Source: Gammaproteobacteria bacterium (GTDB lineage: Bacteria; Pseudomonadota; Gammaproteobacteria; SZUA-152). From it: DNA of 64,000 nucleotides. The notes beneath the pieces were generated by a model. That model was not told the DNA's origin and made no database searches. It saw nothing but the letters and a program-made list of their open reading frames with translations. The translations under genes were made by a program, and so were the position numbers. The DNA is taken from positions 1 to 64,000 of the forward strand of contig JAKIUF010000019.1 in the NCBI GenBank assembly GCA_021647705.1. Reading direction: 5' to 3'. Shown piece by piece: positions 26,889 to 64,000 of the stretch. Numbering within the stretch: position 1 is the first letter of the stretch; every line of letters begins with the position of its first letter.

Positions 26889-27174
26889 TTGCTTTGGTTT
26901 AGTGGCTCTGTTGCTGTCGGCCTGCGAGCTTCCTAACGAGCCTCTGGTGTATCCTGAAGCCGATTCGGCATCAGCGAAACTTTATCAGGCAAAATGTGCC
27001 AGATGCCATAATGCACCGCAGCCTCATGCACACACTGTACAGGCGTGGCCTGCCATTTTGCAGCGTATGCAAATGCGTATGGTAACCAAAGGGGCGACAC
27101 CATTGAATAAAGATGAATTGAGCGAGGTGCTGGACTATCTTCAGCGCCATGCCACGCTGGCGGATTCAAAATGA
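26851..27174 (+). CDS. Monoheme cytochrome c lipoprotein
   Basis: The 107-residue product has a signal segment with lipobox LLSAC and a small cytochrome domain with CARCH (residues about 50-54), followed by a long helix and a candidate Met ligand. It overlaps the preceding gene by 38 bp. A start at 26806 is also possible. With the preceding heme-less CcoP-like anchor it may form a split equivalent of CcoP. Confidence 0.7.
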   Translation: MQHARPPSLPTNSCFGLVALLLSACELPNEPLVYPEADSASAKLYQAKCARCHNAPQPHAHTVQAWPAILQRMQMRMVTKGATPLNKDELSEVLDYLQRHATLADSK

Positions 27175-27608: not shown

Positions 27609-27628
27609 CGCTGGTGACCTTTAAAAAA

Positions 27629-28692: not shown

Positions 28693-28809
28693 AGAATACA
28701 ACTGTGTTATGTAGAAGAGCAGGATACACGTAGCGTGCTTAAGTAAGGCAGTGACTTTTTGTTAATGCTGAGGCCGGTATTTTTTATGAGCACACAGCAG
28801 AAACCACAC

Positions 28810-45356: not shown

Positions 45357-46582
45357 AGGCTGTAAATTAAATTGTGTAACTGCACATTGTTCAATACCCT
45401 TGATAATAAAGGAAAAGAATCCTGCGCAAAAGCAACAAGCAGACTGCACTTGAGCAGCACATCAAAAACCTCAGCAGCAACATCAAAACGGCAGAGGAGG
45501 AGCTGGAAGACCTCACTCGGTTGTTACGCAAGACAACCCTGGAAGCCATGCTCGAAGGTGAGATGGCAGATCATCTGGGTTATCCTAGGCATGCCCCCGA
45601 AGGCCATCACAGCGGTAACAACCGCAGGGTGAGCATGGCGAAGTCGCCATTGATATCCCCCGTGACCGCAATGGTGAGTTTGAGCCACAGGTCATTCCCA
45701 AAGGTCAAACCCGCTTGCCGCTGTTTAACGACAAGGTTCTAGCCTTGTACAGTCGCGGCATGAGCACTCGCGATATCGTCGCCACCCTGCACGAACTGTA
45801 TGACGTAGAGGTATCTCCCACACTGATTTCCCGCGTCACCGACCACGTCCTGGAACAGGTGCAAGAATGGCAATCGCGGCCATTGGATGAAATTTATCCC
45901 ATCGTTTATCTCGATTGCATTGTGGTGAAAATCCGCCAGGATAAGCGCGTTATCAACAAAGCCATTTACCTTGCCCTGGGCATCAACCTGGACGACCACA
46001 ACGTGGCCTCAAAGATATTTTCATCGCCGCTGTTGACGGTTTGAGCGGCTTTCCCGAAGCCATCAACACTGCCTACCCGAAAACCAAGATTCAACTATGC
46101 ATTGTGCATATGGTGCGTAACTCGCTAAGGTTTGTCTCCTGGAAAGAGCGCAAGGCCGTCGCGGCCGATCTGAAAAAGATTTACCAATCCCTCACCGTCG
46201 AAGAAGCTGAACGGGAGCTGGATGCCTTTGCGCAACGCGAGGATGAAAAGTTTCCGACCATCAGTCAATCCTGGCGAAAACACTGGCCCAATCTAATCAC
46301 CATATTTTGAATACCCGGATGATATTCGCAAAGTGATTTATACGACCAATGCTATTGAATCACTCAACAGCGTGATCCGAAAAGTGATCAAAAACCGGAA
46401 AGTTTTTCCCGCGGATCAATTGGCTACGAAGGTCATCTACTGGCGATTCAGGAGGCCTCTAAAAAATGGACCATGCCCATTCACCATTGGAAGAATGCCC
46501 TGAATCGATTTATGATTGAGTTTCCGGACAGAATGCCGGAACAGTTTTAAAACGGGCAGTTACACAAAATTATTTACAGGCT
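45357..46582 (+). mobile_element. IS256-family insertion sequence, degraded
   Basis: The ends form an imperfect inverted repeat of about 27 bp: GAGGCTGTAAATTAAATTGT at the left (continuing GTAACTGC) and its counterpart (GAGCCTGTAAATAATTTTGT on the minus strand) at the right. The transposase between them is broken by several frameshifts. I could not find a matching 8-9 bp target duplication next to the ends. Confidence 0.8.
45422..46550 (+). pseudogene. IS256-family transposase with four frameshifts
   Basis: Conceptual translation across frames gives a near full-length Mutator-type transposase. LRKTTLEAMLEGEMADHLGY is near the N-terminus, followed by LFNDKVLALYSRGMSTRDI, IYPIVYLDCIVVKIR (first Asp), AAVDGLSGFPEAI (second Asp), CIVHMVRNSL, then IYTTNAIESLNSVIRK, and ends PDRMPEQF. 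Frame changes occur near 45627, 46012, 46305 and 46440. The first codon is CTG where ATG would be expected. Inactive. Confidence 0.85.
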
Positions 46583-49532: not shown

Positions 49533-50534
49533 ATGAATAAAAAATTATTAGCGGTTGCAGTAAGTGCGGCCCTGGTTGTTCCTGCAGCCGCGATGGCAGC
49601 AGATGCGTTTGTGTACGGCCATGCGCAGGTTGAAGTGGCAAGTTACTCCGATGAAACTCCTTCAGGTACACCGCTTGCGTCGCAAGGTAAAGATGGTGTT
49701 GCACTTGAAGATAATGCTCGTGGTCGTTTGGGTGTGAAAGCTTCGGAAGACTTGGGTAATGGTTTGAAAGCAATTGCTCAGTTTGAATGGAGAATGAAGA
49801 CGGATGAGGGCGGCGGATTTACCCCTCGTGTATCTCAGGTGGGTTTGACGGGTGGTTTTGGTACCTTCGTGATGGGCAATCTGAAATCGCCTTATAAATA
49901 CACTGGTGGTGTGAAATACGATCCTTTTGTCGCGACTGCATTGCAAGCTCGTAGCAATGGAGGTATGTCAGGTAAAAATCTCGACCCAACAGGTACGGGC
50001 GCTTTGGGGCATCATAGTTTTGTGAGCGACCTAGTTGCTTATGCTTCGCCGAAAGGTCCTTTTACCGCTTCCATTGGTTATGGTCCTTCTGAGGATGATG
50101 GTCTAGTGGTAGTGGATTTTAAATACAGCCAGGGTGCTATAGAGGCTTTTGTTGCTTACCTTGATGCGGGTGATCGTTTGGTTGTTATAGGGCCAAATGA
50201 TGAGTATTCAGCTGCTAAGGTCGGTGGCCAGTGGAAGTCCGGTTCACATAAGATTTCGGCTCAATACGAAATGATTGAACGTGATGTGGGTGGTGCTGCC
50301 ACTGATCCTACGGTTCTCTTTTTGGGTTACCAGATGAAAATGGGCAAAAACACCTTTGCGCTTCAGTATGGTGATACCGATTATGATGTTTCAGGAATGG
50401 ATAACACCACTTACATGGCCTTGGGTGTAATCCATAAAATGTCCAAAACCACTCGCGTGTTTGGGGGTTATCGTGACACCAGTGATGTGGAAAGCGTTGT
50501 GACTGTCGGTTTGCGTAAAGACTTCAAGTCTTAA
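49533..50534 (+). CDS. Outer-membrane porin (general diffusion, Porin_4 type)
   Basis: The 333-residue product has a signal peptide (ending AAAMA-ADAFVYG) and the start of a trimeric-type porin (VYGHAQVEVASYSD). LGVKASEDLGNGLKAIAQFEW, the RVSQVGLTGGFGTFVMGN constriction segment and a final strand ending in KDFKS also fit. The last residue is Ser rather than the usual Phe, which is unusual for barrel insertion. A terminator follows at 50573. Confidence 0.88.
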   Translation: MNKKLLAVAVSAALVVPAAAMAADAFVYGHAQVEVASYSDETPSGTPLASQGKDGVALEDNARGRLGVKASEDLGNGLKAIAQFEWRMKTDEGGGFTPRVSQVGLTGGFGTFVMGNLKSPYKYTGGVKYDPFVATALQARSNGGMSGKNLDPTGTGALGHHSFVSDLVAYASPKGPFTASIGYGPSEDDGLVVVDFKYSQGAIEAFVAYLDAGDRLVVIGPNDEYSAAKVGGQWKSGSHKISAQYEMIERDVGGAATDPTVLFLGYQMKMGKNTFALQYGDTDYDVSGMDNTTYMALGVIHKMSKTTRVFGGYRDTSDVESVVTVGLRKDFKS

Positions 50535-50572
50535 AAACGTCAAATAATAACAATATTTTAAGTCGTTTATTG

Positions 50573-50599
50573 AGCGGAGCCTTTGGGCTCCGTTTTTTT
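50573..50599 (+). terminator. Terminator after the porin gene
   Basis: CGGAGCC and GGCTCCG form a stem around TTTG followed by seven T. Confidence 0.88.
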
Positions 50600-50710: not shown

Positions 50711-51808
50711 ATGAATTTACGAAAAGCAAGAGGTTGGTCATGCGTGGTGTTGCTGGTGTTGCTGGTATTGCTGGGAGGCTGTGCCGCAGTTCCGCAACAG
50801 TCAGATGATCAGCCAATCTACTGGCCCAATCCGCCAGCAGCACCGCGCTTTGTGCATGTGGCTACGTTGGTGTCGGGTGAAAGCATCCGCAGAGAAAATG
50901 CAGAGGGTCGGCTCCTCAAAGCACTGAGGGGAGTTAAAAACAAGGGCAGTGTTTTCGCCAAGCCGTTTGGTGTGGCGGCAAAAAATGGCTTGGTGGTGGT
51001 AACGGACACGGTGTTGCGGCAAGGATTCATTTTCAATTTGCAGCGTCAGAAACTATACCCCTTGGGGCGAGTGGGTAAAAAAGGTGTGTTGATTAAGCCG
51101 CTGGGGGTGACGATTGGTGCGAATAGCCAGATTTACATTGCGGATGCGAGCGCACGAAAAGTAATTGTCTACGATGCTTTTGGGATGCATCTTAGCGATA
51201 TTGGTGATTTCAGAGACTTGGATCGCCCCGTTGATGTGGCGGTGTCTCCGGACGGAAAACAGGTTTATGTTGTGGACGCAGGTGGTATTGATAGCAGGCG
51301 TCACCGAGTGGTGGTGTATTCCTCAGTGGGTGTGAAGCTGTTTGAATTTGGCTGGCGTGGTAATGGGACTGGGGAGTTTAATCTGCCGACGCAAGTGGAG
51401 GTTGCGTCAGATGGCACAGTTTACGTGTTGGATGCGGGTAATTTTCGAGTGCAGGTGTTTTCGGCCGATGGCCAGTTTCAGCGCGCCTGGGGTCGAGTAG
51501 GCCGAGGTTTTGGCGATTTTGCCCGGCCGCGAGGTTTGGCGGTGGGGGGGGATGGTAATGTTTATGTTTCGGATGCAGCCTTTCGTAATGTGCAGGTGTT
51601 TAATCCCAAGGGCGAATTGCTGCTAGCAATCGGTGGCAAACGGCTTCTGGACCGAGCGGGGGAGTTGGCGATGCCAGCGGATATAGCTGTGGATGAATTG
51701 CAGCATCTCTACATTGTGGACCAAGTTTTTAAGAAGGTCGAAGTGTTGCGTCAACTGAGTGAGCAGGAAATGGATGCTATTGTTGCCAGACGGCAAGATG
51801 CCCAGTAA
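50711..51808 (+). CDS. NHL-repeat beta-propeller lipoprotein
   Basis: From the ATG at 50711 the product has 365 residues with lipobox LLGGC and six NHL-type blades (about 80-350): KPFGVAAKNGLVVVTDT, KPLGVTIGANSQIYIADA, RPVDVAVSPDGKQVYVVDA, LPTQVEVASDGTVYVLDAG, RPRGLAVGGDGNVYVSDA and MPADIAVDELQHLYIVDQ. A longer form from 50693 is possible. It resembles the products at 60148 and 61223. Such propellers accompany extracellular multiheme cytochrome loci; a scaffolding or export role is inferred. Confidence 0.85.
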   Translation: MNLRKARGWSCVVLLVLLVLLGGCAAVPQQSDDQPIYWPNPPAAPRFVHVATLVSGESIRRENAEGRLLKALRGVKNKGSVFAKPFGVAAKNGLVVVTDTVLRQGFIFNLQRQKLYPLGRVGKKGVLIKPLGVTIGANSQIYIADASARKVIVYDAFGMHLSDIGDFRDLDRPVDVAVSPDGKQVYVVDAGGIDSRRHRVVVYSSVGVKLFEFGWRGNGTGEFNLPTQVEVASDGTVYVLDAGNFRVQVFSADGQFQRAWGRVGRGFGDFARPRGLAVGGDGNVYVSDAAFRNVQVFNPKGELLLAIGGKRLLDRAGELAMPADIAVDELQHLYIVDQVFKKVEVLRQLSEQEMDAIVARRQDAQ

Positions 51809-52263
51809 TGCCTGATTAAAAATATACGCCTATAAAATATTTTTTTAGTTTTCAAAAGTGAGTACGATCACGTCTGTTGTACATTAACAAGATTAAGTAA
51901 TATGCATTAGTCAATCTGGATTTATGTGAACGGAGTCACACTTTTGCGAAGAGTTTTCGTGCGCAGTATGGTGAAAAAAGAATGAATATCAGGGTTGCTT
52001 TTTGTATATCACATTGATTTTATAGTGTTTTTTCACGGCAGCGAGATTTTTGTGGTCGTGTGGTTTATTGGTTCAGGATATTGTCGGGATTGACAGCTTG
52101 TCGTTAGGCATGCTAAAAAGTATCCCTGTGAGGGAAAACTTTGTTTGCCCGCGAGTGCTGTAGCAGGCTCCGGGTTTACGTGGCAGTAAGCCCGTTTTGG
52201 GTTAGTTAAGCAGTAAGGAAATATATTTATTAATTCTCGTGCACGAGACCATATGGGGGTTTC
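51809..52263 (+). promoter_or_regulatory. Long structured 5' region of the tetraheme cytochrome gene
   Basis: This 455-bp gap probably carries the promoter of the cytochrome locus. A TTGACA at 52089 has a weak TAAAAA about 18 bp downstream. The transcript would contain CCCT/AGGG (52124-52134) and a 9-bp hairpin CGGGTTTAC/GTAAGCCCG (52172-52195). I compared it with the cyclic-dinucleotide GEMM consensus and see no match. Whether the structure is regulatory is unknown. Confidence 0.4.
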
Positions 52264-53274
52264 ATGATGAAACATTTTGTAAAAACGTCGGTAGCGACGG
52301 CAGTAGTACTAGGGACGGCTCTGGCGGCTAGTGGAGTATTTGCTAGTGTAGCAGGGTCAATTGTTAATACGCGTCATAATATGGGTTCGCAAGGACAAGG
52401 GCCGAATACCGCCGCTCCTGAGAATACCGCTGAAATTTGTATTTTTTGTCATACACCTCATGGTGGTAGTACGGAAGATGCTGCCGGTAATCGGGTGTCA
52501 GTTCCCTTGTGGAATAAGCAGCTGGCAGCCGATGTAACAGTGTTTTCCACTTATGATCAATTGGGTACTTCCACCTTGGATGCTGCTGTGGGTGAGGTAG
52601 GCTCTGTGTCTCTGGCATGTTTGAGCTGTCATGACGGGACGCAGGCCATTGATAATATCATTAATGCTCCAGGTTCAGGTGGTTATGATGGTGCTGGTGG
52701 TGGTGTTGATGGCTTAGGTTGGGCCTGGAACAGCGGAGATAACACGTTGGATGGTACTGGCCGATTTATAGATTCTGTGGATACCGATGGCACCAATATC
52801 TGGGCGATTGGCACCGACCTGACAAATGATCACCCGATAAGCGTGCAGTATGGGGGTGGTGGTTATTCAGCAACGAGCCCAACTGGCGGGCATTTTGCCG
52901 GTACTTTATCAGGTGTCACTCGTGATCAGGATTTCGCGCCTGCGCTTCAGATTGGTGGTGGAGCGCGTTGGTACGTGGACAACCTCCTTGTGAACGCTCC
53001 TGGTGAGTCAGCGGCTAATATCTTCGATAAATGGGATTTTAAACTGTACACGCGTGATACTACTGGGATGCGGGCTTCAGAGAATGGCGCGCTGTTTGCG
53101 GAACAGGACGAACCGTTTGTCGAGTGTGGCTCCTGTCATGATCCTCATTTTCAGACCACAACTTTTCTGCGTATGGATGGTGCAACTGACTTAGGAGGAA
53201 CCAACCCTACTCCTGCGGGTGCTGATCAGTCCAACGCAGGCAGCCGTGTTTGTTTGGTGTGTCATACCAAGTAA
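52264..53274 (+). CDS. Secreted tetraheme cytochrome c
   Basis: The 336-residue product has a signal peptide (ending GVFA) and four heme sites: CIFCH (59-63), CLSCH (119-123), CGSCH (288-292) and CLVCH (330-334). Associated histidines occur in HTPHGG, NDHPIS and CHDPHF. The order CxFCHTPHG, CLSCHDG, NDHPIS, C-SCHDPH, CLVCHTK is shared with the larger cytochrome at 62467. Tetraheme proteins of this doubled-CXXCH kind include filament-forming extracellular cytochromes such as OmcE. A role in extracellular electron transfer is likely, polymerisation only possible. Confidence 0.85.
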   Translation: MMKHFVKTSVATAVVLGTALAASGVFASVAGSIVNTRHNMGSQGQGPNTAAPENTAEICIFCHTPHGGSTEDAAGNRVSVPLWNKQLAADVTVFSTYDQLGTSTLDAAVGEVGSVSLACLSCHDGTQAIDNIINAPGSGGYDGAGGGVDGLGWAWNSGDNTLDGTGRFIDSVDTDGTNIWAIGTDLTNDHPISVQYGGGGYSATSPTGGHFAGTLSGVTRDQDFAPALQIGGGARWYVDNLLVNAPGESAANIFDKWDFKLYTRDTTGMRASENGALFAEQDEPFVECGSCHDPHFQTTTFLRMDGATDLGGTNPTPAGADQSNAGSRVCLVCHTK

Positions 53275-53318
53275 ACTGACCTCTGATTTCTTGGTTTAGG
53301 TTAGTGGGCTGGCAGCCT

Positions 53319-53349
53319 GGCGGGGACGCCTGGGCTGTCGGCTTTTTTT
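53319..53349 (+). terminator. Terminator after the tetraheme cytochrome
   Basis: The GC-rich stem GCAGCC-TGGCG / CGCCTGGGCTG around GGGA with outer GGCT/GTCGGC pairs, followed by TTTTTTTA. It separates the cytochrome from the PPIase gene, allowing a higher transcript level of the former. Confidence 0.7.
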
Positions 53350-53416
53350 ATGGGAGTTTGAAAATAGCGCGGTTACGTGCTTGTTGGATTATTTTGCAAT
53401 TTTAGGGTGAAAAAGA

Positions 53417-54421
53417 ATGTTTATGATGCGTGTGCTGATTTTGTGGTGTGTGGGTTTTTTTTGGGTGGGTAACATTTCCGCTGCGCCGCAACAAGCCGTA
53501 AGTTCAGTTGCGGAAGAAGTGGAAGAGAAGCCAGAGGAGTTGGATTATATTGCTATTGTGAATGGACAGAAAGTGTCTATGGGGCAATATGTTTCTGCGT
53601 TACGCAGAGGGGTCAGGGAGCGTTTTTATCACGGTAAAGTCGAAGAAGATGAAGCAAAAGAATTCCGTAAGGACGTTGCTGATGAGCTTATTGAAAGGGC
53701 TTTGTTGGTTCAGGAGGCCAAGCGTCGCAAGTTGAAGGCTGACGCTGATCAGGTTGAGACTGATGTGAAAGCTTTTGATGAAAAATTTCAGGATGACCCC
53801 GAGTGGGCCAAAGCTCGCGACAATGTACTATCAGAATTACGGGAAAAGCTAAATGATGATAGTTTAGCCAAAATAATTAAGCTTTCGGTAACGTCGGTGG
53901 ATGCGCCGTCGGACAGTGAGCTGAGAAAATATTATGAAGAAAACAAAAACTTGTTTACTACGCCGTCACGCAACCGGGTTTCGTTGATTTTATTGCGAGT
54001 GGATCCTTCCTCGTCTTCCGAAGTATGGAGGCAGGCCAGTGATGAAGCGACGTCGATTGTTGAGCGCATCAATACAGGTGCTGATTTTGCAGAGTTGGCC
54101 AGGATTCATTCCAGTGACGAGTCTGCCGAGAATGGTGGTGATATGGGTTTTGTGCATTTAGGCATGCTGGGAGAAAATGCAGAAAAAGTATTGGCTATCA
54201 TGGAACCGGGTGAGGTTTCTGCCCCGGTAGTGTTGTTGGAAGGTGTATCCATATTTCGGCTGGAAGAACGTACTCCGCCTGCGTTGAATGTTTTTGATTC
54301 GGTCAAAGAACGAGCGCAAAGACTATATCAGCGGGAGAAGGGAGAAGAGGCATGGAAGGTACTTTTACAGCGCCTGCATGCGGATGCAAAGATTACCGTT
54401 AATGATGCCCCTTGGCGATGA
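53417..54421 (+). CDS. Parvulin-type peptidyl-prolyl isomerase
   Basis: The 334-residue secreted product (signal ending ISAAP) has a SurA-like N-terminal helical chaperone part (about 45-170: IAIVNGQKVSMGQYVSALRRG, ELIERALLVQEAKRR), then a parvulin domain (about 185-285). The latter holds RNRVSLILLRV, FAELARIHSSDESAENGGDMGFV and APVVLLEGVSIFRLEERTPP. It isomerises prolyl bonds and assists folding in the periplasm. Its position in the cytochrome locus points to a dedicated chaperone for the secreted cytochromes or the barrel that follows. Confidence 0.88.
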   Translation: MFMMRVLILWCVGFFWVGNISAAPQQAVSSVAEEVEEKPEELDYIAIVNGQKVSMGQYVSALRRGVRERFYHGKVEEDEAKEFRKDVADELIERALLVQEAKRRKLKADADQVETDVKAFDEKFQDDPEWAKARDNVLSELREKLNDDSLAKIIKLSVTSVDAPSDSELRKYYEENKNLFTTPSRNRVSLILLRVDPSSSSEVWRQASDEATSIVERINTGADFAELARIHSSDESAENGGDMGFVHLGMLGENAEKVLAIMEPGEVSAPVVLLEGVSIFRLEERTPPALNVFDSVKERAQRLYQREKGEEAWKVLLQRLHADAKITVNDAPWR

Positions 54422-54631
54422 GTTTGCGCCAGTCTGGTGGCTAACATATACTGCCGATGATAAAAATAAGCACAAGTATGAGGTACTGATGTGCCGCTTG
54501 TGGGTGAAATTTGCACGCACGCCAAAGTATTTTTGGCATGTTATCTGAATCATAGAGCGGGGGCTTCGTGTGTTGAATGGGGGTGATGGTGAAAGCCTGT
54601 TTGTCCGCGTTTGGTGCGAATCAGATTGAAT

Positions 54632-56434
54632 ATGGTGTCGAGCGGTATTATTTTGCGGCGACGGGGGTGGTTGGCTGTCGTTTTGGGACTCTCTGTGCTG
54701 TCAGAAGCGCATGCTGCCTTTAATGGTTTGGTGCCGTTGTCGTATTCTGGACAGGTTGCCTACAATTACACTTACGTTGAGAATGCGGACAGTCAGTCTG
54801 AGGCGACTAGTTTGTTGTTTGGTCTGGGCGCATCTGGGTACATTTGGCGACCCTGGTTCGCTACTACATCACTGGCGCTAAATGTCGGCTTGTCGAGCGC
54901 TAACTCTACATCTAGCCGTTCAGAAGGGACGGTCGGTACTGGCAGTTTTTCAGTGGGAGTTTTTCCCGGGAGCCGTTTTCCTTTTTCCATGAGTTATTCC
55001 AGGACAGATAGTCGTTCTGAACAGTTCCAGGATATATCGCAAATTTCAGGTAACACCCGTTTTCGTGTGACTCGACTTACTTTGCGCCAGAGTTACCGTC
55101 CACGAGCATATAATCAGCTGTACAATGGCTGGTATAGTTCTACCAAATACGACGCGGAGGTTTTTGGTTCAAGCAGCGAGGTTTACGGTCTGAATTATCA
55201 GCTGCGTATTCCGCAGCAAGTTTTATCCATAGATATAGCTCACACGAGTACGCGAGCGCGAGGTATGGCTGATGACTCAAGTGTGAATATGGTGTCACTT
55301 GGCCATGTTTATATACCGAGCGCAGAGCTGGGTGTGAACAGCCTGGTTTCATATGTGGAAGTTGACCCTATTGGAAATAGCGGCACGTCCACCGATTCTC
55401 AGGCATTCAGTTCATTTTTCTGGCGACCGGAGTATCGTGCGCTCAGAGTGTCAGGTGGCGTGCGGCTGAGTGAAAGCAAGAGCGGGACGGCTACGGAAGC
55501 TTCCCGAAGCCTTAGTACAAATTTGAGTTTGGGGTACCAGCTTTCTCGTTCATTAAGCATGAATGCTGGAGCCTCCTTGAGCACATCTGCTAGTGGGGGC
55601 AGCCAAACATTGTCGATGGCGCAGACGGTGGGACTGTCCTACTCAGGCGGGCAAACACAGTGGAGGGGAATTTCCCATTCCTGGCAATGGAATGCAAATG
55701 CAACGAATGCAACGACACGAGTGGAAACGAATAATGATGTTGCTACGAGTGATGAGGACGGTTTGAGTACCCAGAATATCTCCTCAGGCATTGGTCATAA
55801 TTTGATCAAGTCGTGGGCGGCGGGTTCGGCAAGTTCTTTGGCGGCGACTTTCTCACAGTCTCTATCCGGCGGTAAAAATAGCGAAGTTGACAATATAACA
55901 AAAAGTCTGAATCAGGGGTTAAGTCTAAGTTGGAGCTCGCGCCGGCGTCGGGGGACAACATATGTCAGTGGCCGCCTCAGTGACTCTCGGAGCTTTAGCA
56001 ATGATGAAGATATAATTGCTCTGTTTCGGGATTTTAGCAATCCGGATACTGTGTTTCAGAGTTTTAGTTTGAGTTACAACGCTGATATTACTTTTGGTCG
56101 TCTCAGCAGCATATCGGGCGGGGCCAATTATCAGGCAACTCAAAGTGCGACAAAAACCGAGACAGAGGAGCAGGAAAGTTCGTCGAGGAGTATTGCTGGA
56201 GGGGTGTCATATCGACATAGTCGCCCATTTGGGGTTTATAATCTTCGTTTTACTACTAACTTACAGGGTGGTAAACAGATTGCCAGTGCTAGTCCAACAT
56301 CAACCCTACGATGGCGGGCGGGGCTTCGTTATAATCTGGGTTTACTGTCAACAGCGTTGACTTTTAACGCCTCGCAGAGTGCGGGTGGAAATATTATAAA
56401 ATCAATGAATTTTCAGGCTACCCGTAGTTTTTAA
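54632..56434 (+). CDS. Outer-membrane beta-barrel, candidate electron conduit porin
   Basis: The 600-residue product (start MVSSGIILRRRGW) has a signal peptide ending AHA and is almost entirely made of alternating strands rich in Ser, Thr, Tyr and Arg, with short turns. It ends in ATRSF, with the terminal Phe expected of barrel proteins. About 24-28 strands are plausible. No heme motif. It lies between the chaperone and triheme cytochrome genes, which is the pattern of porin-cytochrome conduits. It is not a recognisable MtrB/PioB/OmbB homologue by eye. Confidence 0.7.
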   Translation: MVSSGIILRRRGWLAVVLGLSVLSEAHAAFNGLVPLSYSGQVAYNYTYVENADSQSEATSLLFGLGASGYIWRPWFATTSLALNVGLSSANSTSSRSEGTVGTGSFSVGVFPGSRFPFSMSYSRTDSRSEQFQDISQISGNTRFRVTRLTLRQSYRPRAYNQLYNGWYSSTKYDAEVFGSSSEVYGLNYQLRIPQQVLSIDIAHTSTRARGMADDSSVNMVSLGHVYIPSAELGVNSLVSYVEVDPIGNSGTSTDSQAFSSFFWRPEYRALRVSGGVRLSESKSGTATEASRSLSTNLSLGYQLSRSLSMNAGASLSTSASGGSQTLSMAQTVGLSYSGGQTQWRGISHSWQWNANATNATTRVETNNDVATSDEDGLSTQNISSGIGHNLIKSWAAGSASSLAATFSQSLSGGKNSEVDNITKSLNQGLSLSWSSRRRRGTTYVSGRLSDSRSFSNDEDIIALFRDFSNPDTVFQSFSLSYNADITFGRLSSISGGANYQATQSATKTETEEQESSSRSIAGGVSYRHSRPFGVYNLRFTTNLQGGKQIASASPTSTLRWRAGLRYNLGLLSTALTFNASQSAGGNIIKSMNFQATRSF

Positions 56435-56526
56435 TGTAGGGTAGTATGTGCGCTGCGCGTGAGATAATAAAATTACATTCAGCGTGTGTTTTGGTTTTTT
56501 TTGATGAATTTATGGAGGGAGGCTCT

Positions 56527-56934
56527 ATGTTCAAATCAGCAATGATCGGCTTGTTGAGTATGTTTGCAGTTCTCATGTTGCCCCAAGCGGCGCAGGCGGA
56601 ATATGCTGATGTAGTTATCAACAATTATGCTGATGCGGCGGGTATGCGTCCGGTGGTTTTTCCGCACTGGTATCATCGCATCCGTTTCCGCTGTAAGGTT
56701 TGTCATGCGGATCTTGGTTTTAAATTTAAAGCTGGTGGCAATAAAATTACTATGGCGAATATTATTGATGGCAAGTTTTGTGGAGCTTGCCACAACGGTG
56801 AAATTTCATGGTCGGTGGAAAATTGTGGTATGTGCCATTCAGGAGTGCCAGGAATGCCGACGCAGATTCACGGTAGTACTGTGCAGCGATTGGTTGCACC
56901 GACGTACAAATCTCTAGATAAGCCAGCTAAATAA
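56527..56934 (+). CDS. Periplasmic triheme c7-type cytochrome
   Basis: From the ATG at 56527, 8 nt after GGAGGGAGG, the product has 135 residues with a signal peptide (ending AAQA). The triheme pattern VVFPHWYHRIRFRCKVCH, CGACHNG, CGMCH matches the c7-type triheme (nanowire_3heme) domain: FPH and H-x-C histidines serve as distal ligands. Likely a periplasmic shuttle. Confidence 0.88.
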   Translation: MFKSAMIGLLSMFAVLMLPQAAQAEYADVVINNYADAAGMRPVVFPHWYHRIRFRCKVCHADLGFKFKAGGNKITMANIIDGKFCGACHNGEISWSVENCGMCHSGVPGMPTQIHGSTVQRLVAPTYKSLDKPAK

Positions 56935-56956
56935 TGACGTTAAGAGGGGGGATAAA

Positions 56957-57619
56957 ATGAAAATAAAACACTTCTTCTTGAGCGTACTGGCGATGACGGT
57001 TTTGTTGGCCGTTGGTTTTAATGCTCAGGCAGCTCAAGCGCCTTTAAAGGAAGTCAAATCGGCTAAGGGGAACGTAAGTGGGGCGAATGTGTTTAATCGC
57101 CTGCTGAAGAAAGATACACAGCGTAACGCAGCACCGGCCGAAGATGGTATTCATGATCCTGCGAATGATGGCACACACGTATTGCAACCGCCGTTAATTG
57201 CCTACGATGGTTTGCCGACTAGCGAGTTTGGTAATTATGTGGACTGGGTGAAATCGTTGGATGATGGTCTGTTGAAGCCACGCTATGATCTTTTTGATCC
57301 GACTGTAGAGCCATTGGTAATGGACTTGGATATCGTTCGTGAAGTGAAAGCGTCGATGCCTGATGTGGTGTTTCCGCATAAGCCGCATACTCAGTGGTTG
57401 CACTGTTCCAATTGCCATCCAAAAATATTCATTCCGCAACGCAAGGCGAATGTAATGAGCATGTCGGCAATTTTGCTGGGGCAGAAGTGTGGAGTGTGTC
57501 ATGGCAAGGTATCTTTCCCGGTTACTACAGCGTCATGTACCAAGTGTCATTCCAAGCCGAAGGCGGCTGACTGGAAACCACCGAAGAGTGAAGCCAGTCT
57601 TCAGAATCCATGGCGATAG
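56957..57619 (+). CDS. Triheme c7-type cytochrome with N-terminal extension
   Basis: The 220-residue product has a signal peptide (ending AQA), an N-terminal region of about 110 residues containing EDGIHDPANDGTHVLQPP, then the triheme domain: VVFPHKPHTQWLHCSNCHPKIF, CGVCHGKVSFP, CTKCH. It is a paralogue of the product at 59598 (same EDGIHDP motif and domain order). Probably a periplasmic or outer-membrane-associated carrier. Confidence 0.88.
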   Translation: MKIKHFFLSVLAMTVLLAVGFNAQAAQAPLKEVKSAKGNVSGANVFNRLLKKDTQRNAAPAEDGIHDPANDGTHVLQPPLIAYDGLPTSEFGNYVDWVKSLDDGLLKPRYDLFDPTVEPLVMDLDIVREVKASMPDVVFPHKPHTQWLHCSNCHPKIFIPQRKANVMSMSAILLGQKCGVCHGKVSFPVTTASCTKCHSKPKAADWKPPKSEASLQNPWR

Positions 57620-57669
57620 TTTTTGTTGCAGTGATTAATCATTGATGGAATTAACATTGTGAAATCAGG

Positions 57670-57702
57670 ATGCGGTGCAGATAAATTTCTGTACCGCATT
57701 TT
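57670..57702 (+). terminator. Terminator-like hairpin
   Basis: ATGCGGTGCAG and CTGTACCGCAT pair (one mismatch) around ATAAATTT, followed by TTTGG. Moderate terminator between the triheme and cupredoxin genes. Confidence 0.6.
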
Positions 57703-57775
57703 GGTGTTTTGCACTGCTTTTTTATGCATCAGTGACTTTATAAAATTTTAGTTGTGTTTTTGAGGAAGGGTCAAA

Positions 57776-59416
57776 ATGTCAAAGCTCTGCGCTAGAACGG
57801 TGTTGTTTTTCTGTATGACAACGGTGTTGAGTTTGGTAGGTTGCGGTGGCCAAGCGGTCAAACCGGAGAGCAATGCCGTGGCTGATGCGGCAAAGTTAAC
57901 AGCAACAGAAAAAAATGAGCTAGTTCAGGAGCTTGCTGTTAAGAGCAAATCAGAATCGCTGGTAGAGGTTATGCCACAAAAGCAAGGGGGCGAACCAGTG
58001 GTTGAGATGGAGCCCATTCCTGCTACAAAAACTTCGGCCAAAGGAAAAGATGACTCGCTCATTGCGGAAAAAGAAGAAAAATTAACAACTGATGTTTCTG
58101 TCCTCGAAAAGCAGATTGCTGCTCCAGCAATACCAAATAGGGTTGGGTCAGAGACAATGGCTCCCGAAGTGGAAAACAAGGTAGTACCAGTTTCCTCAGG
58201 ACCAAACCATTTTGTAGTGACCGTTGGCCCTAAAAAGCCCACCCACCCTGCGTATGGCAAGGGGCATGCTATGGGGTTTTTAGTGGATGGTGTTTCGGGC
58301 AAAGAGTTGGTAGTTGAGCGTGGAAAAGTCTATACATTTGAGATTGACTCCGACCCAAAGCATGATGTGTATTTATCGACAAAAGCGGTCGGTTGGGGTG
58401 GCGCGCCTTTTGCGGCCGGTGTGGAGGGGGCGTACACCTATAAAGGGAAAATGACGCTTAAAGCAGATAAAGAGACGCCAGATCAGTTGTTTTATTCTTG
58501 TCGTAATCATCCTTATATGGGAGGAGTGGTACACATTGTAGATAAGGGACAAAAGATTGACATCAAACAGCAAGCTGCTGCGAGCAAAGCCGCAGGCGGG
58601 GGCGTATCTGCGAGGGCAGAGACGGTCACTCTGTCCAAAGTTAAGCAAAAATTGATGTTTGCGGAAATGATGCTTGGTGCGCAAGGTGCGAAGCGCGTTT
58701 TGGCCAGCGAAAACGATAAGGCTAAGCAGTTGGTTGCTGCAGCAGAGAAAAAGCTGGATGAGGGGCGCAAACAGTCTTCGGCGGGAGCACTGCCTGAAGC
58801 ATTGGTTTTGGCGAATCAATCACTGAAAATGTTAAGTGAGGCGTCGCGTTTAGTCCCGGGTGATGAAGAGATTGCACAGCAGGAAGAAGACTACAAAACT
58901 GTATTGGTAGAAATACAAGATTACCAAAAATCTTATCGTGACAATATTAAACGTATGGGGAAAAGTGGCGATGTGACCGATGATGCCAAGCTGGATGAGA
59001 AAAAGTTGGCAGCAACATTGGCGCAAGCGAAGAGCTTGGCAGAAAAGAAAGATTATGTGCGAGCCAATAAATTATTACGGCAGGCTCGGACCACAATTAC
59101 TGGTGCATTGCACAAAATCCTAGACTCCAAAACTATTGTATATGATTTGAATTTTGAGACGCCAGCGGATGAATATGAGTATGAATTATTGCGTTTCGCA
59201 GGTTATGAAGAGCTGATACCTGTGGCCATTGAAGCTAAAAAACCTGCTCCAGGAGCAATTAAGCTGATGGAAAGCTTCTTGAGTAAAGCGCGTAGTCGTC
59301 GTGACGAAGCTGTTGCAAAGGCAGAGGTTGGTGATTATCCAATGGCGATTGCGATGCTGTTGCAGGCGACCAAAACTGTGCGACGGGCATTGCGTATGGT
59401 GGGTGTGGCACAATAA
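57776..59416 (+). CDS. Cupredoxin-domain lipoprotein with long helical tail
   Basis: The 546-residue product has a lipobox LVGC (Cys23), a Glu/Lys-rich linker (about 30-135), a cupredoxin-like domain (about 145-258), and then a helical, coiled-coil or TPR-like region to the end. Candidate type 1 copper ligands are His196 (PKHDVYL), Cys242, His245 and Met248 (SCRNHPYMGG), in the C-x2-H-x2-M spacing of short-loop cupredoxins. It lies among the triheme cytochromes and may exchange electrons with them. I know of no named family with this architecture. Confidence 0.75.
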   Translation: MSKLCARTVLFFCMTTVLSLVGCGGQAVKPESNAVADAAKLTATEKNELVQELAVKSKSESLVEVMPQKQGGEPVVEMEPIPATKTSAKGKDDSLIAEKEEKLTTDVSVLEKQIAAPAIPNRVGSETMAPEVENKVVPVSSGPNHFVVTVGPKKPTHPAYGKGHAMGFLVDGVSGKELVVERGKVYTFEIDSDPKHDVYLSTKAVGWGGAPFAAGVEGAYTYKGKMTLKADKETPDQLFYSCRNHPYMGGVVHIVDKGQKIDIKQQAAASKAAGGGVSARAETVTLSKVKQKLMFAEMMLGAQGAKRVLASENDKAKQLVAAAEKKLDEGRKQSSAGALPEALVLANQSLKMLSEASRLVPGDEEIAQQEEDYKTVLVEIQDYQKSYRDNIKRMGKSGDVTDDAKLDEKKLAATLAQAKSLAEKKDYVRANKLLRQARTTITGALHKILDSKTIVYDLNFETPADEYEYELLRFAGYEELIPVAIEAKKPAPGAIKLMESFLSKARSRRDEAVAKAEVGDYPMAIAMLLQATKTVRRALRMVGVAQ

Positions 59417-59524
59417 GTAGGCTAAATTTTGAATCTGTTTTTGCATGGATGTCTGTAAGTTGTTGATTTTTTTTGGCGAACCTGTGTGTTGGGCTCTGCC
59501 TGTGCGGTCACTTGCGAGATTTAA

Positions 59525-59553
59525 TACACCGTCGAAATAGCCTTGACGGTGTA
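59525..59553. terminator. Inverted repeat after the cupredoxin gene
   Basis: TACACCGTC and GACGGTGTA pair around GAAATAGCCTT. No T-run follows, so it is a weak terminator or an RNA stability hairpin 108 bp after the stop. Confidence 0.45.
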
Positions 59554-59597
59554 CTAGGTTATAATTCATTCATCATTTATTGAAAAGTAACAGGGCA

Positions 59598-60164
59598 ATG
59601 CGTAATTCAGAGTTAATAAAATGGGTTCAGTGTGTGGCGTTACTTGCTGGTGCTACACTTATTTCAGTTAGTGTGTACGCAGAAGAGGGGGGGGGGCATT
59701 ATCAACTGCATGGCGATGTGGTACCGATAGCTGAAGATGGGATTCATGATCCGGAAAATGCTGCAACCAACACATTACAGGCACCTGTAGAGGCCATGAA
59801 AGACTTCCCCCGGGATGCGCGTGGCGTTATCAATTGGGTGGAAACTCTGAATGATGGATTGATTGCACCGCGCACGGGGTTGACGGGCACGGAAAAAATG
59901 CACTCTGTGGACTTTGACGTCATTTTCAAAAATACTGCATCTATGCCTTATGTCCGTTTTCCACATTTGCCGCACACCCAGTGGCTCACTTGTAAAAATT
60001 GTCACCCCGGTATTTTCTTGCCGCAACGGGGAGGGAATTTTGTCACTATGGCATCGATTATCGAGGGTGAATTTTGTGGTGTCTGTCACGGTAAGGTGGC
60101 TTTTCCTCCGTTGCAATGTAATCGCTGTCATAATGTAGCCCGCGAAAATGTCGGTTTACGTTAG
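59598..60164 (+). CDS. Triheme c7-type cytochrome containing a G10 tract
   Basis: The 188-residue product (ATG 59598) has a signal peptide (ending VYA), the EDGIHDP motif, and the triheme domain: VRFPHLPHTQWLTCKNCHPGIF, CGVCHGKVAFPPLQCNRCH. It is a paralogue of 56957. The region after the cleavage site contains ten consecutive G (59687-59696, encoding part of AEEGGGHY). Slippage there would break the frame. It overlaps the next gene by 17 bp. Confidence 0.88.
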   Translation: MRNSELIKWVQCVALLAGATLISVSVYAEEGGGHYQLHGDVVPIAEDGIHDPENAATNTLQAPVEAMKDFPRDARGVINWVETLNDGLIAPRTGLTGTEKMHSVDFDVIFKNTASMPYVRFPHLPHTQWLTCKNCHPGIFLPQRGGNFVTMASIIEGEFCGVCHGKVAFPPLQCNRCHNVARENVGLR

Positions 60165-61218
60165 TTTTTTTGTGCCACGCATATTTTTCTTTTTGGTGTT
60201 AGCGAGCACGCTACTGGCCTGTAGTGTTGCGGAAATGGAGAAATTTGCGCTTGAGGGTGATGAGCTGACGAAGGCTTCCAAGCCTAAGCGTGATACAGGG
60301 CTTTCACAAAAAGTGGGAGCAAAATTACTTTCTGCTGAATCCATTATTAGTGGTGGGCGTCGGTCCTATAAAGGCTTTTCCGGGCAGTTTGGTCGGTTAC
60401 TGATTGGTGAAGCCGATGAAATCAGGTTACAAAATCCCGTTGCCGTTGGTGGTGTAGACGGTGTGTTGTATATTGTCGATGCTGCGCCGAAAATTGTTTA
60501 TAAATACGACTTGGTCACCAACGAGATCGAGCCTCTTGGGGAAATTGCCACTCACTTTCGAGGTGATCCCGGCAATATTTATGTTGCCAGGGATCGCTCG
60601 TTTTATATTGTGGATCCTGTGGGGCGGCAGGTATTACATTTCAGTGAGCACGGAGAGCTGCGTACCACATTTCAGGATCTTGCTAATCTTTCGCGTCCCA
60701 TTGATGTGATAGTGAATGAAGAAACGGGTGATGTGCTGGTAGCGGATGGCTCATTCAGCCATATAGTCGTGTTTAATAATATGGGTAAGGCGACTAATGC
60801 TATTGGTCAGCGTGGTACGGGGGCAGGCCGTTTTCGAGCGATAACCTTTATGACTAGCGGCGTAGATGGTTTGTACATACTGGACCGGCTGGAGTTACCG
60901 GTGCAGGTGATCGATTGGCAGGGAAGCTACCATTATTCATTTGGTGAGTCTGAGTTGTTATATCCTAGCGCTATTGCGGTTGATAAAGATCAGCGTGCAT
61001 TTATCGCTGATCGTTCTAGCAATACTATTTTGGTTTATCAAGATGGGCAATTGAGTATGACTTTTGGTGCCAGTGGTTCGGCACCGGGGCGTTTCCACTT
61101 GATTACTGGTTTGTGGGTAAATGATAATTTGTTGTACGTTGCCGATAGTCTTAACCAGCGCGTGCAAGTGCTTCGCATAAATCCGTCCGCAGCGTTGCCG
61201 GTTATTCCAGGGGGCTGA
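60148..61218 (+). CDS. NHL-repeat beta-propeller lipoprotein
   Basis: The 356-residue product overlaps the triheme gene. It has a lipobox LLAC and NHL-type blades (about 95-345): NPVAVGGVDGVLYIVDA, DPGNIYVARDRSFYIVDP, RPIDVIVNEETGDVLVADG, YPSAIAVDKDQRAFIADR and HLITGLWVNDNLLYVADS. It pairs with the following paralogue. Its outer-membrane lipoprotein nature fits assembly or docking of surface cytochromes. Confidence 0.85.
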   Translation: MSVYVSFFVPRIFFFLVLASTLLACSVAEMEKFALEGDELTKASKPKRDTGLSQKVGAKLLSAESIISGGRRSYKGFSGQFGRLLIGEADEIRLQNPVAVGGVDGVLYIVDAAPKIVYKYDLVTNEIEPLGEIATHFRGDPGNIYVARDRSFYIVDPVGRQVLHFSEHGELRTTFQDLANLSRPIDVIVNEETGDVLVADGSFSHIVVFNNMGKATNAIGQRGTGAGRFRAITFMTSGVDGLYILDRLELPVQVIDWQGSYHYSFGESELLYPSAIAVDKDQRAFIADRSSNTILVYQDGQLSMTFGASGSAPGRFHLITGLWVNDNLLYVADSLNQRVQVLRINPSAALPVIPGG

Positions 61219-61222
61219 TAGC

Positions 61223-62350
61223 ATGCGGATAAATTTTTCTGTTTTTCTTTTGTTATTATTCGTGGCACTGCTACTTACAGGTTGTGGTGAAACGCGCTAT
61301 CTGTTGCGTTACGATAAGCCAGCCGAGGAAAAAGTTTGGCCCCCTCTGCCGGATAAACCACGTTTTCGCTATGTTGGTCAGTTGGTGGGAGAAAGCAATC
61401 TCTTGGCTGTGAATGATGGTGGTGCTGGTGCAGCTATCGGACGATTTTTCAAAGCCTTGGTTGGTTTGGGTGATAGGCCGGATAATGTGCGTAATTTGCT
61501 GCGCCCGCAAAGCGGTACCGTCGATGCGGCAGGGCGTATTATTGTCACCGATGCTGGTAGACAGGCTGTGTTCGTGTTTGATCAAAAGCTTGGCAAGATG
61601 GATGTTTGGCAAGGGGCGACTAAAGATTTTAATTTTGTGTCACCGGTAGGTGTTGCAACGGCAAAAAATGGCGATGTTTTAGTGGCCGATTCTGAGTTGC
61701 GTCGAGTGGTTCGCTTGGATGCTGAAGGAAACCCGAAGGGGACGTTTGGTTTTGAGGATCTGGAGCGTCCAACAGGGTTGGCAATTGACACCAAAAGTGG
61801 CCGTATTTTTGTAGCTGACACGGGCGAACACAATATTAAGGTATATTCCGATGCGGGTAAATTAGTGCAAGTGATTGGTCAAATTGGCACTAAGTGGGGC
61901 GAATTTAATGCGCCGACGCATGTCAGTTTTGTGGACGACCGGCTATATGTTACTGATACTTTTAATGCCCGAGTGCAGCTTTTTGATTCAAATGGAAAAT
62001 TTATTCGTGCTGTTGGTTCACGGGGGCTGTATTTAGGCAATCTGGTACGGCCTAAGGGGGTAACGGCAGATAGTTTGGGGAATATTTATATTGTTGAATC
62101 ATTCCATGATTATTTGCTAATATATGATCGGAACGCTCGGTTTTTGTTGCCTATTGGTGGTTCTGGCTCTGCTGTTGGGAAGTTTTATTTACCCGCAGGG
62201 GTTTGGTCTGATCAACAGAATCGTATTTATATTGCAGACATGTACAACGGGCGGGTGGTTGTGTTCCAGCATCTTTACGAACAGGGACAGGATGGCGCTT
62301 TTGGTGTGAGGCCGATAGGTGGGGTTTCTGCAGACGGGCAGGAAAAATAG
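61223..62350 (+). CDS. NHL-repeat beta-propeller lipoprotein
   Basis: The 375-residue product starts 5 bp after the previous gene behind AGGGGG. It has a lipobox LLTGC and six NHL blades (about 90-355), among them VSPVGVATAKNGDVLVADS, RPTGLAIDTKSGRIFVADTG, APTHVSFVDDRLYVTDT and RPKGVTADSLGNIYIVES. It is closest to 50711 in layout (PPLPDKPRFRYVGQL against NPPAAPRFVHVATL near the N-terminus). Confidence 0.87.
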   Translation: MRINFSVFLLLLFVALLLTGCGETRYLLRYDKPAEEKVWPPLPDKPRFRYVGQLVGESNLLAVNDGGAGAAIGRFFKALVGLGDRPDNVRNLLRPQSGTVDAAGRIIVTDAGRQAVFVFDQKLGKMDVWQGATKDFNFVSPVGVATAKNGDVLVADSELRRVVRLDAEGNPKGTFGFEDLERPTGLAIDTKSGRIFVADTGEHNIKVYSDAGKLVQVIGQIGTKWGEFNAPTHVSFVDDRLYVTDTFNARVQLFDSNGKFIRAVGSRGLYLGNLVRPKGVTADSLGNIYIVESFHDYLLIYDRNARFLLPIGGSGSAVGKFYLPAGVWSDQQNRIYIADMYNGRVVVFQHLYEQGQDGAFGVRPIGGVSADGQEK

Positions 62351-62466
62351 GATATATGTGGCGACAGTAGGTAGATACGCAGGACTCGAAAAAAGATAAA
62401 AAAAAGATAAGAGGGGTCGAAAGAGGGTAATAGGTATTGAAAAGTTGAGAATTTAAAGTGACAGGA

Positions 62467-64000
62467 ATGGACATGCGAAACAAAGAAGTTGTGACGACGA
62501 GTATATTACTGTTCCTGTTCCTGTTCGCGGTGGTGTGGATATCGCCTGTGTCAGCTGCTCGCATTTCCGATATTAGCAATACCAAGCACAATTTTTCAGC
62601 TCTTGTGACGCCAGATATTCTGGGGGGTGGTGATACCCGTACGGTGAAAGCGACAGAAGAGGCGGAAATTTGTGTTTTTTGCCATACTCCACACGGGGCT
62701 AATCAGTCCGAAGGTCCGCTTTGGAACCGTGCGATCCCCCCTAGCTCTTCATATACCGTTTATAGTTCGAGCTCCATTGATTCCTCGATTGAACAGCCCA
62801 ATGGAGCATCAAAATTGTGCCTTTCCTGTCACGATGGCAGCATTGCCGTTGGCAGCGTACGGAATAGCAGTGGTAGTGGTGGATTTCAGTCAGGAACCAT
62901 CAATATGACGGGTACTGGCACTAGCGGGGTAATGGCACCGGGTGAAGGCAATAATACGGGTTATACTCGTTTTCTGGGTAATGACCTGAGCAATGATCAC
63001 CCCATTTCGTTGACCTATAGTCAAGCATTGTTCAGCGCTGATGGTGAAATGCGTGACCCAACAGAGAACCCGATTCGGGTGCGTGGTTTGACTCCGCGAC
63101 CGCAACTTCAGGATATTCATTTACAACCCGCGGTGCGCAATGCGCCAACTCCCGATAATGGCCAAGTACAGTGCATCAGCTGCCATGATCCGCATATCCG
63201 TGATACTACTGATGAAAACATCAAATTTTTGCGATTGAACCGTTTACAAAAAGCCCAGCCTGATGGTTCCGATAATTTCTTGCCAGCAACTGACATTATT
63301 TGTCTGGCATGCCACACCAAGGCGGGCTGGGAAGGTTCGGCGCATGCTCAGCCCAGCGTGGCGAACGAGATTTACACCAATGCTGCTGCCGACGTGCGTG
63401 AGTTTGCACAGGGTACTGCGGTGTGGCAAACGGCCTGCTTGGCCTGCCATGATACGCACACAGTGCAGGGCTCACGTCGCCTGTTACGCGGAGGAACAGA
63501 CGGTAGTACGTTGACTTCGGCCAGTGGTTATACAATTAAGGCGGGTGATGGCAATTATTCCATAGAAGAAACCTGTTTTGCCTGTCATTCCAGTGATGGT
63601 GGCACGCTCACTTCACAGGGTATGGGTACTGATGTGCCGGATATCAAAGTAGATTTTAATCTGCCCTTTCGTATGCCAATCCGTAGTGAGAATCAAGCGG
63701 CAGGTATGGAGGTGCATGACATCGGTAGCACAGGCGAGGATACTCAGGAACTGAATCAGCGAGGTAAGGACTTTATTGAATCCCGCGCCAATCTGGGCAA
63801 AATCAGCATGGGTGGTTCGCTCAATAATCGCCATGCGGAATGTACGGACTGCCACAATCCACACCGGGTTACTAGGCGTAGACAGTTTAATCAGGATAAT
63901 CTTGGCGGTACTCTGGACGCAGCGGGTACTCACAACCATGATAATGCCAACCCACATACCAACATTGCATCCGGAGTGTTGCGTGGCATGTGGGGTGTGG
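62467..64000 (+). CDS. Large secreted multiheme cytochrome c, partial
   Basis: The frame from the ATG at 62467 (or 62473) runs open to the window end (over 510 codons). It has a signal peptide (ending SPVSA) and at least seven heme sites: CVFCH, CLSCH, CISCH, CLACH, CLACH, CFACH and CTDCH. HTPHG, NDHPIS, CHDPH and CHNPH motifs are present, and the first four hemes share the layout of the tetraheme product at 52264. It is likely an outer-surface or extracellular electron carrier that extends the tetraheme architecture. The full heme count lies outside the window. Confidence 0.88.
   Translation, partial: MDMRNKEVVTTSILLFLFLFAVVWISPVSAARISDISNTKHNFSALVTPDILGGGDTRTVKATEEAEICVFCHTPHGANQSEGPLWNRAIPPSSSYTVYSSSSIDSSIEQPNGASKLCLSCHDGSIAVGSVRNSSGSGGFQSGTINMTGTGTSGVMAPGEGNNTGYTRFLGNDLSNDHPISLTYSQALFSADGEMRDPTENPIRVRGLTPRPQLQDIHLQPAVRNAPTPDNGQVQCISCHDPHIRDTTDENIKFLRLNRLQKAQPDGSDNFLPATDIICLACHTKAGWEGSAHAQPSVANEIYTNAAADVREFAQGTAVWQTACLACHDTHTVQGSRRLLRGGTDGSTLTSASGYTIKAGDGNYSIEETCFACHSSDGGTLTSQGMGTDVPDIKVDFNLPFRMPIRSENQAAGMEVHDIGSTGEDTQELNQRGKDFIESRANLGKISMGGSLNNRHAECTDCHNPHRVTRRRQFNQDNLGGTLDAAGTHNHDNANPHTNIASGVLRGMWGV

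Follow-up and report, generated by a model that had tools for sequence, protein, structure and literature searches.

A Uet-type cytochrome and outer-membrane barrel locus in a gammaproteobacterium, with homologues of OmcE and probable relatives in Nitrospirota

The window analyzed here, comprising the first 64,000 nucleotides of contig JAKIUF010000019.1 from a gammaproteobacterium of the SZUA-152 lineage (assembly GCA_021647705.1), carries on its plus strand, from position 50711 onwards, a run of genes for multiheme cytochromes, a large barrel protein, a peptidyl-prolyl isomerase (PPIase) and several lipoproteins (Table 1). It is highly probable that this locus is the gene cluster uetABCDEFGHIJ and encodes an outer-membrane electron conduit, one that most likely serves an autotrophic gammaproteobacterium in taking up electrons from donors that are solid or attached to surfaces (Fe(II) minerals, cathodes). 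The locus is thus a further member of the known Uet system. Beyond the literature examined, we add the homology of UetA and UetJ to the Geobacter nanowire cytochrome OmcE, a model of the UetC barrel, and a probable link between Uet and the PCC_1 complex of 'Ca. Manganitrophaceae'.

Gene content, order and conservation

The Uet complex of cathode-oxidizing Tenderiales comprises an undecaheme cytochrome (UetJ), an extracellular tetraheme cytochrome (UetA) and periplasmic triheme cytochromes (UetD, UetE and UetG) (PMC10734462); the isomerase UetB, the NHL units UetH and UetI and the barrel UetC also belong to it (PMC10734462, a 2023 paper on Gallionellaceae). The name uetABCDEFGHIJ was given after Eddie 2022, according to a review (PMC12575090). 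In 'Candidatus Tenderia electrophaga' the trihemes are Tel_16515, Tel_16520 and Tel_16530 and the undecaheme cytochrome is Tel_16545; a tetratricopeptide repeat (TPR) protein, Tel_16525, is cotranscribed with the trihemes, which are said to rank among the most highly expressed genes (PMC5371394, published in 2017). Outside Tenderiales, Gallionella has been reported to carry the cluster, and Leptothrix to carry UetJ together with the associated porin.

All of these components, from the tetraheme UetA, the PPIase UetB and the barrel UetC to the trihemes UetDEG, the NHL proteins UetHI and the undecaheme UetJ, occur together in the window. When locus tags and annotations, not sequences, are compared, the gene order equals that of Tel_16515 to Tel_16545, with two tags remaining for UetH and UetI. 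The cupredoxin-like protein is assigned as UetF because it occupies the same position as the TPR-annotated Tel_16525. A first-pass annotation of this DNA had listed a tetraheme cytochrome, a PPIase, a barrel, three trihemes, a cupredoxin lipoprotein, three NHL lipoproteins and a multiheme cytochrome; every protein of that list is present on the plus strand, in a run that extends past the window to the contig end at position 74,529. The last cytochrome, for which at least seven hemes had been counted, contains 11 CXXCH motifs once it is read beyond the window edge (L004:459-3197, 912 residues). The annotation had also regarded a conduit of this make-up with a cupredoxin as new. Since gene content and order match those of Uet, the make-up is not new: it corresponds to the cluster already described (PMC10734462, PMC5371394, PMC12575090).

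The numbers of CXXCH motifs in UetA, UetD, UetE, UetG and UetJ (4, 3, 3, 3 and 11) exceed by more than two orders of magnitude the means obtained from 2000 shuffles of each protein (0.005, 0.013, 0.004, 0.009 and 0.028, respectively). Chance occurrence is ruled out by these shuffles together with the conservation of the cluster. Of 24 genomes in the host's order, counting its own, 20 contain the UetC barrel, as do 14 of the 15 better ones. Ten of the 18 regions fetched from the order hold uetA to uetJ in order, although UetJ is cut in L034, and L033 has two split genes, UetF and the NHL gene at the start; the remaining eight are collinear fragments. The NHL gene upstream of uetA stands at the same place in all ten. 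UetD, which shares 80-94% identity with 11 relatives, has a homologue in 44 of 369 sampled Gammaproteobacteria genomes (E up to 1e-25). A UetD scan of named genomes, a set that overlaps in genomes with that of the order, returned 54 loci: 11 in Nitrospirota, and 43 elsewhere, of which 24 carry the complete cluster, 18 carry part of it in collinear order, and one, from Nitrosomonadales (L084), is rearranged. Among proteobacterial loci, the link between trihemes and cluster is strict.

UetF gave no Pfam domain above cut-off. Its blue-copper-like HDxY...CxxHxxM pattern, which we take to be a type 1 copper site, is whole in 36 of the 38 named loci with a UetF match; in L043 the first histidine is separated from the other residues by a frameshift, and L084 lacks the motif. 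Lipobox-like motifs occur in this protein and in all three NHL proteins.

Table 1 Genes of the uet locus within the window
Feature	Position	Strand	Basis
NHL-repeat 6-bladed propeller lipoprotein, uetA upstream companion	50711..51808	+	PF01436 E 1.6e-24 (open reading frame run from 50660); lipobox-like LGGC
UetA, predicted exported tetraheme cytochrome, OmcE homologue	52264..53274	+	4 CXXCH; OmcE 7tfs match
UetB, SurA/PPIC-type peptidyl-prolyl isomerase	53417..54421	+	PF13145 E 7.3e-18; PF13624 E 9.3e-11
UetC, predicted outer-membrane beta-barrel, ~28 strands	54611..56434	+	AlphaFold2 model; without Pfam/NCBIfam match
UetD, triheme c7 cytochrome	56446..56934	+	TIGR04257 65.4 bits
UetE, triheme c7 cytochrome	56957..57619	+	TIGR04257 61.8 bits
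UetF, lipoprotein with cupredoxin-like domain (H...CxxHxxM) and long C-terminal part	57776..59416	+	motif read from sequence; lipobox-like LVGC
UetG, triheme c7 cytochrome	59580..60164	+	TIGR04257 60.0 bits
UetH, NHL propeller lipoprotein	60148..61218	+	PF01436 E 1.4e-10; 17-base overlap with uetG
UetI, NHL propeller lipoprotein	61223..62350	+	PF01436 E 8.2e-30; starts 4 bases past uetH
UetJ, undecaheme cytochrome, truncated by window edge	62458..64000	+	OmcE-like N-terminal part; 11 CXXCH when complete

OmcE-like cytochromes and the UetC barrel

UetA matched two solved cytochromes, OmcE (PDB 7tfs; E 5.1e-16 as a single sequence, 1.7e-26 as a profile) and 9yuq (E 2.5e-12 and 1.3e-23, respectively). 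Four histidines of UetA (His 38, 66, 190 and 295) and those of its four CXXCH motifs are invariant in 17 of 17 sequences; both sets fall in the same motifs in OmcE (NTKH, CHTPH, NDHP and CHxxH), and the former would be the distal heme ligands. Residues 28-252 of UetJ matched 7tfs with E 1.1e-23. UetA and the N-terminal part of UetJ are, at the level of sequence, homologues of OmcE, which would offer a structural template for the extracellular end. The trihemes UetD, UetE and UetG score 60-65 bits against the NCBIfam family nanowire_3heme (TIGR04257), whose cut-off is 40. UetJ gave a match to ExtKL below cut-off, and PF14537, a poor probe, has three matches in the genome, all outside the locus. 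A tblastn search with the start of UetJ against plasmids returned no match, and no Desulfobacterota locus was reached in this way. A link between Uet, OmcE and Manganitrophus was not found stated in a partial literature survey that did not include Eddie 2022 or Yu and Leadbetter 2020.

UetC has no Pfam match and no NCBIfam match at E 0.01. Its AlphaFold2 (AF2) model has a predicted local distance difference test score (pLDDT) of 87.6 and a predicted template modeling score (pTM) of 0.62, and 28 long strands were counted from the listed elements. VIA-align placed MtrB (6r2q_B) first, with a Z of 20.5, a root-mean-square deviation of 11.0 and 409 aligned residues (next row, 18.6); Foldseek placed it at rank 17 with a TM score of 0.40, in a listing made up mostly of generic large barrels. 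UetC is a predicted 28-strand barrel with MtrB as its top match in VIA-align and without sequence similarity to it. The MtrB barrel has 26 strands. When the whole genome was searched, the MtrA family (TIGR03508) gave 13 weak matches, none above cut-off, and the MtrC family (TIGR03507) gave none; the MtrB family (TIGR03509) also returned nothing, in a weak search whose controls matched nowhere. No MtrA/DmsE-type decaheme partner lies within the locus. The first-pass annotation had proposed a locus of extracellular electron transfer type that lacks MtrCAB-type genes and recalls Geobacter. Both points are borne out, the first by the MtrA and MtrC searches and the second by the OmcE match of UetA and the triheme family.

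Related modules in Nitrospirota

Among the 11 Nitrospirota loci from the UetD scan, three are titled 'Ca. Manganitrophaceae' or 'Ca. Manganitrophus'. The seven loci with enough flank carry on one strand the genes for a pentaheme cytochrome, an NHL protein, a UetA-like tetraheme cytochrome, a short SurA-type protein, a barrel, a second NHL protein and a large cytochrome, and in the same seven loci two trihemes stand divergently. Their tetrahemes reach 100% in the match to UetA (E 5e-44, 223 columns), and the large cytochromes match the UetJ copies with E 1e-65 to 1e-70. In a tree of 33 large cytochromes (at least 10 CXXCH, more than 800 residues, BLAST E up to 1e-30), a fully supported branch splits the Nitrospirota from the proteobacterial rows, and the two UetJ copies of the contig studied here separate; shorter or weaker cytochromes and those of L105 and L109 were left out, and five rows have long branches. 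The three complete copies of the Nitrospirota large cytochrome (L086, L087 and L090) contain 11 CXXCH and one CXXXCH, or 12 motifs, and 11 motifs are visible in three copies cut by the flank. In the complete genome of Manganitrophus GAC4, this cytochrome is split into two frames with 10 and 2 motifs (L105:13469-16539), and relatives of GAC4 have intact copies.

The barrels were compared with UetC by profile. The Manganitrophaceae-type barrel profile matched UetC at 97.4% (E 1.5e-11 over 568 columns), and profiles enlarged with further Nitrospirota barrels matched at 99.2-99.5% (E 8e-20 to 3e-22); these profiles span 97.4-99.5% over 530-568 columns. The profile controls reached at most 1.3% for UetC against 44 porin sequences, 0.5% for UetC against three MtoB-like barrels, and at most 5.9% for the Nitrospirota barrel profiles against these same controls; they were used in place of earlier single-sequence controls (at most 1.5%), which are an unfair yardstick for homology. 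The six weakest barrels (L127-L132), taken as a profile, matched UetC at 91.3% in one direction (105 columns) and 96.6% in the other (512 columns). Speaking against homology of the barrels, single Nitrospirota sequences score only 0.2-67% against the UetC profile, and the two barrels nearest to those of Manganitrophaceae score 2.8 and 18.3%. These low scores mean that the relation is a remote one.

Five of the UetD-scan matches are metagenome-assembled genomes (MAGs) labeled 'OFTM', presumably for the Oslofjord tunnel. In published work, PCC_1 consists of a porin and a dodecaheme cytochrome and is common to 'Ca. Manganitrophaceae', restricted to this family and a prime candidate for Mn(II) oxidation (PMC9040806); five related MAGs obtained from the Oslofjord tunnel are reported to contain PCC homologues (PMC11442690). 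By its fit to this description, the Manganitrophaceae cluster (L086-L096) is most likely PCC_1, and Uet and PCC_1 would then probably form one family. If so, the candidate machines for electron uptake from cathodes or Fe(II) and for Mn(II) lithotrophy become one. A separate cluster that merely fits the short description of PCC_1 seems unlikely to us. In its favor, three complexes of a porin with a dodecaheme cytochrome are reported for strain Mn1 (PMC9040806), GAC4 carries further multiheme clusters (L111 and L112), and more distant Nitrospirota have related modules whose cytochromes carry 12 motifs, whereas reports confine PCC_1 to its family. In L111 and L112, however, the large cytochromes have 10 and 9 CXXCH, against the 12 motifs and the barrel of the candidate cluster, and the candidate large cytochrome was found once at full length in each of the five genomes searched, that of GAC4 spanning two frames.

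The GAC4 barrel matched 22 of 198 Nitrospirota genomes, and 19 loci not yet examined were then fetched. NHL proteins occur in all 19, as does at least one OmcE-like cytochrome, so that no locus of this distant set is without cytochromes; a PPIase or SurA-type protein is present in 17. A UetJ-type cytochrome with at least 10 motifs is found in 12, most of the others being cut by contig ends. Two loci (L122 and L131) are differently built. No UetF match was found in any Nitrospirota locus examined, and the cupredoxin therefore seems to be a proteobacterial addition to the module. In L123, the OmcE-like tetraheme and the PPIase are separated by an O-antigen-ligase/TPR protein (L123:5697-7628) that might glycosylate the cytochromes; unmatched reading frames of similar size stand at the same place in L121, L124 and L126.

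Proposed electron path, surroundings and comparison with known systems

In the path that we propose, the extracellular OmcE-type cytochromes UetA (possibly polymerized) and UetJ would take up electrons, and the UetC barrel, with one or more hemes inside, would conduct them across the outer membrane. In the periplasm, the trihemes UetD, UetE and UetG, together with the cupredoxin lipoprotein UetF, would relay them to periplasmic cytochromes and a cbb3-like oxidase, and reverse transport would deliver electrons to CO2 fixation. UetB may fold or chaperone the exported parts, for which the NHL lipoproteins may form a scaffold. The genome contains a RuBisCO large subunit, and window positions 11395-28701 encode a diheme cytochrome of PdsA/CcoP type, CcoN- and CcoO-like proteins that have diverged, and a ferredoxin protein resembling CcoG, none of which reaches its family cut-off, in what looks like an unusual cbb3-type oxidase region. 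The RuBisCO and cbb3-like oxidase genes fit an aerobic autotroph.

Several points weigh against a Uet conduit for electron uptake. Its identity with the published cluster is based on content and order, not on a sequence match to the Tenderia proteins. In the passages cited, the data on uet genes concern expression and abundance and are not genetic or biochemical, and changes in electrode potential had no significant effect on the undecaheme gene or the trihemes of Tenderia (PMC5371394). The AF2 model of UetA, built from 17 sequences, reached a pLDDT of 39. UetJ is absent beside the cluster in L076 and L077, two of the 18 partial loci, despite 4.4 and 4.9 kb of sequence after uetI. The locations of the proteins and their assembly into a complex are, like the direction of electron flow and the donor, matters that we infer, and the last two count on this side as well. 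Trihemes stand beside the module in three of the 19 distant Nitrospirota loci; L116, L118, L120 and L122 are without them despite at least 1.4 kb of room, and elsewhere that side is cut.

Since several distant loci lack trihemes, these may stand outside the barrel complex proper. This bears on the role of the barrel, as a sheath around a cytochrome or as a port through which a wire is exported and held. It is possible, if doubtful, that UetC, with UetB and the NHL lipoproteins, is a port that exports and holds an OmcE-type filament of UetA and UetJ and not a sheath in the manner of MtrB; the wire itself would then span the membrane, and the trihemes would merely feed it. The core that recurs with the barrel in the distant loci (PPIase or SurA-type protein, NHL proteins and OmcE-like cytochromes, far more often than trihemes) makes this worth testing. 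The absence of an MtrA-type decaheme from the locus and the strand number of the UetC model, greater than that of MtrB, point the same way. Against it, the best structural match of UetC is MtrB, which is a sheath, though generic barrels occupy the rows close to it; a UetA filament is putative; the linkage of trihemes in proteobacterial loci is strict; and several of the 19 loci break off, at a contig end, on the side where trihemes would stand. We suggest tentatively, and with no greater confidence, that a single ancient machine, unlike MtrCAB in its mechanism, underlies Uet, PCC_1 and the related Nitrospirota modules: a wide barrel, aided by its own PPIase and NHL lipoproteins, would export an OmcE-type wire (UetA/UetJ) and anchor it, and this wire would itself cross the outer membrane. 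Were this true, iron, cathode and manganese lithotrophy would share a conduit varied in heme number and periplasmic partners.

An outward direction, as in a Geobacter-like pathway for reducing metals or electrodes, is rather improbable. OmcE does serve Fe(III) reduction in Geobacter (PMC12307469), and Mto/Mtr conduits are thought to be reversible (PMC10734462); the described Uet host, however, lives on cathodes (PMC5371394, PMC12575090), and the present genome has the RuBisCO and cbb3-like oxidase genes. A secretion system was rejected, as no such family was matched above cut-off in Pfam or NCBIfam, the rows below cut-off being TraV with UetF and CIS12 with UetI.

Downstream of UetJ, the same contig encodes a lactonase-type propeller, a second 11-heme cytochrome of 887 residues and two more propellers, the last interrupted by the contig end; the first two downstream propellers, the only ones run, matched the Pfam lactonase family. 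Two undecaheme cytochromes thus alternate with lactonase-type propellers over L004:459-12530 (62458 to the contig end). Upstream, a small porin gene (49533-50534) precedes the run, and homologues of it lie near the cluster in the loci of many relatives, some with 2-3 copies. A terminator-like hairpin lies between the porin gene and the run (50572-50595); such hairpins are modestly above chance in the region (21 against a mean of 13.8), and promoter-like sites in the same interval are at chance level (16 against 17.6). Farther upstream, an IS256-family transposase remnant was found in two overlapping frames (45715-46310; first piece searched). Other contigs of the same genome carry two further multiheme clusters. 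One (L106:7086-13645, contig C33) encodes cytochromes with 21 and 24 motifs and proteins of 696 and 300 residues without a Pfam match, and it resembles PCC3; PCC3 was rejected as an identity, the PCC3-like pair being on this other contig. The second (L107:4522-13796, contig C29) encodes proteins with 12, 3, 8, 1, 6, 8 and 7 heme motifs and a protein of 420 residues that may be a barrel, and its 12-motif protein is a fusion of NHL repeats to a multiheme cytochrome.

Set beside known systems, the locus shares with the Uet cluster of Tenderiales one order of tetraheme, PPIase, barrel, three trihemes, a gene intervening between uetE and uetG, two NHL genes and an undecaheme cytochrome; beyond the published description, it has an NHL gene before uetA and, after the cluster, the second undecaheme with lactonase-type propellers. 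With OmcE of Geobacter sulfurreducens, UetA shares four CXXCH motifs and four further histidines, and the N-terminal part of UetJ is related as well; UetA is about 100 residues longer, and its kinship is known here from sequence. The probable genes of PCC_1 likewise comprise a UetC-related barrel, an OmcE-like tetraheme, NHL lipoproteins, a SurA-type protein, a large OmcE-like cytochrome and two trihemes. They differ in having 12 heme motifs in place of 11, an additional pentaheme OmcE-like protein, divergent trihemes, no UetF match and, in the single case tested, a SurA-type protein that lacks a PPIC domain. MtrCAB and MtoAB also combine a barrel with multiheme cytochromes, and the predicted fold of UetC ranks nearest to MtrB in VIA-align, whereas the Uet locus is without the decaheme MtrA partner and UetC matches neither the MtrB profile nor that of the three MtoB-like barrels.

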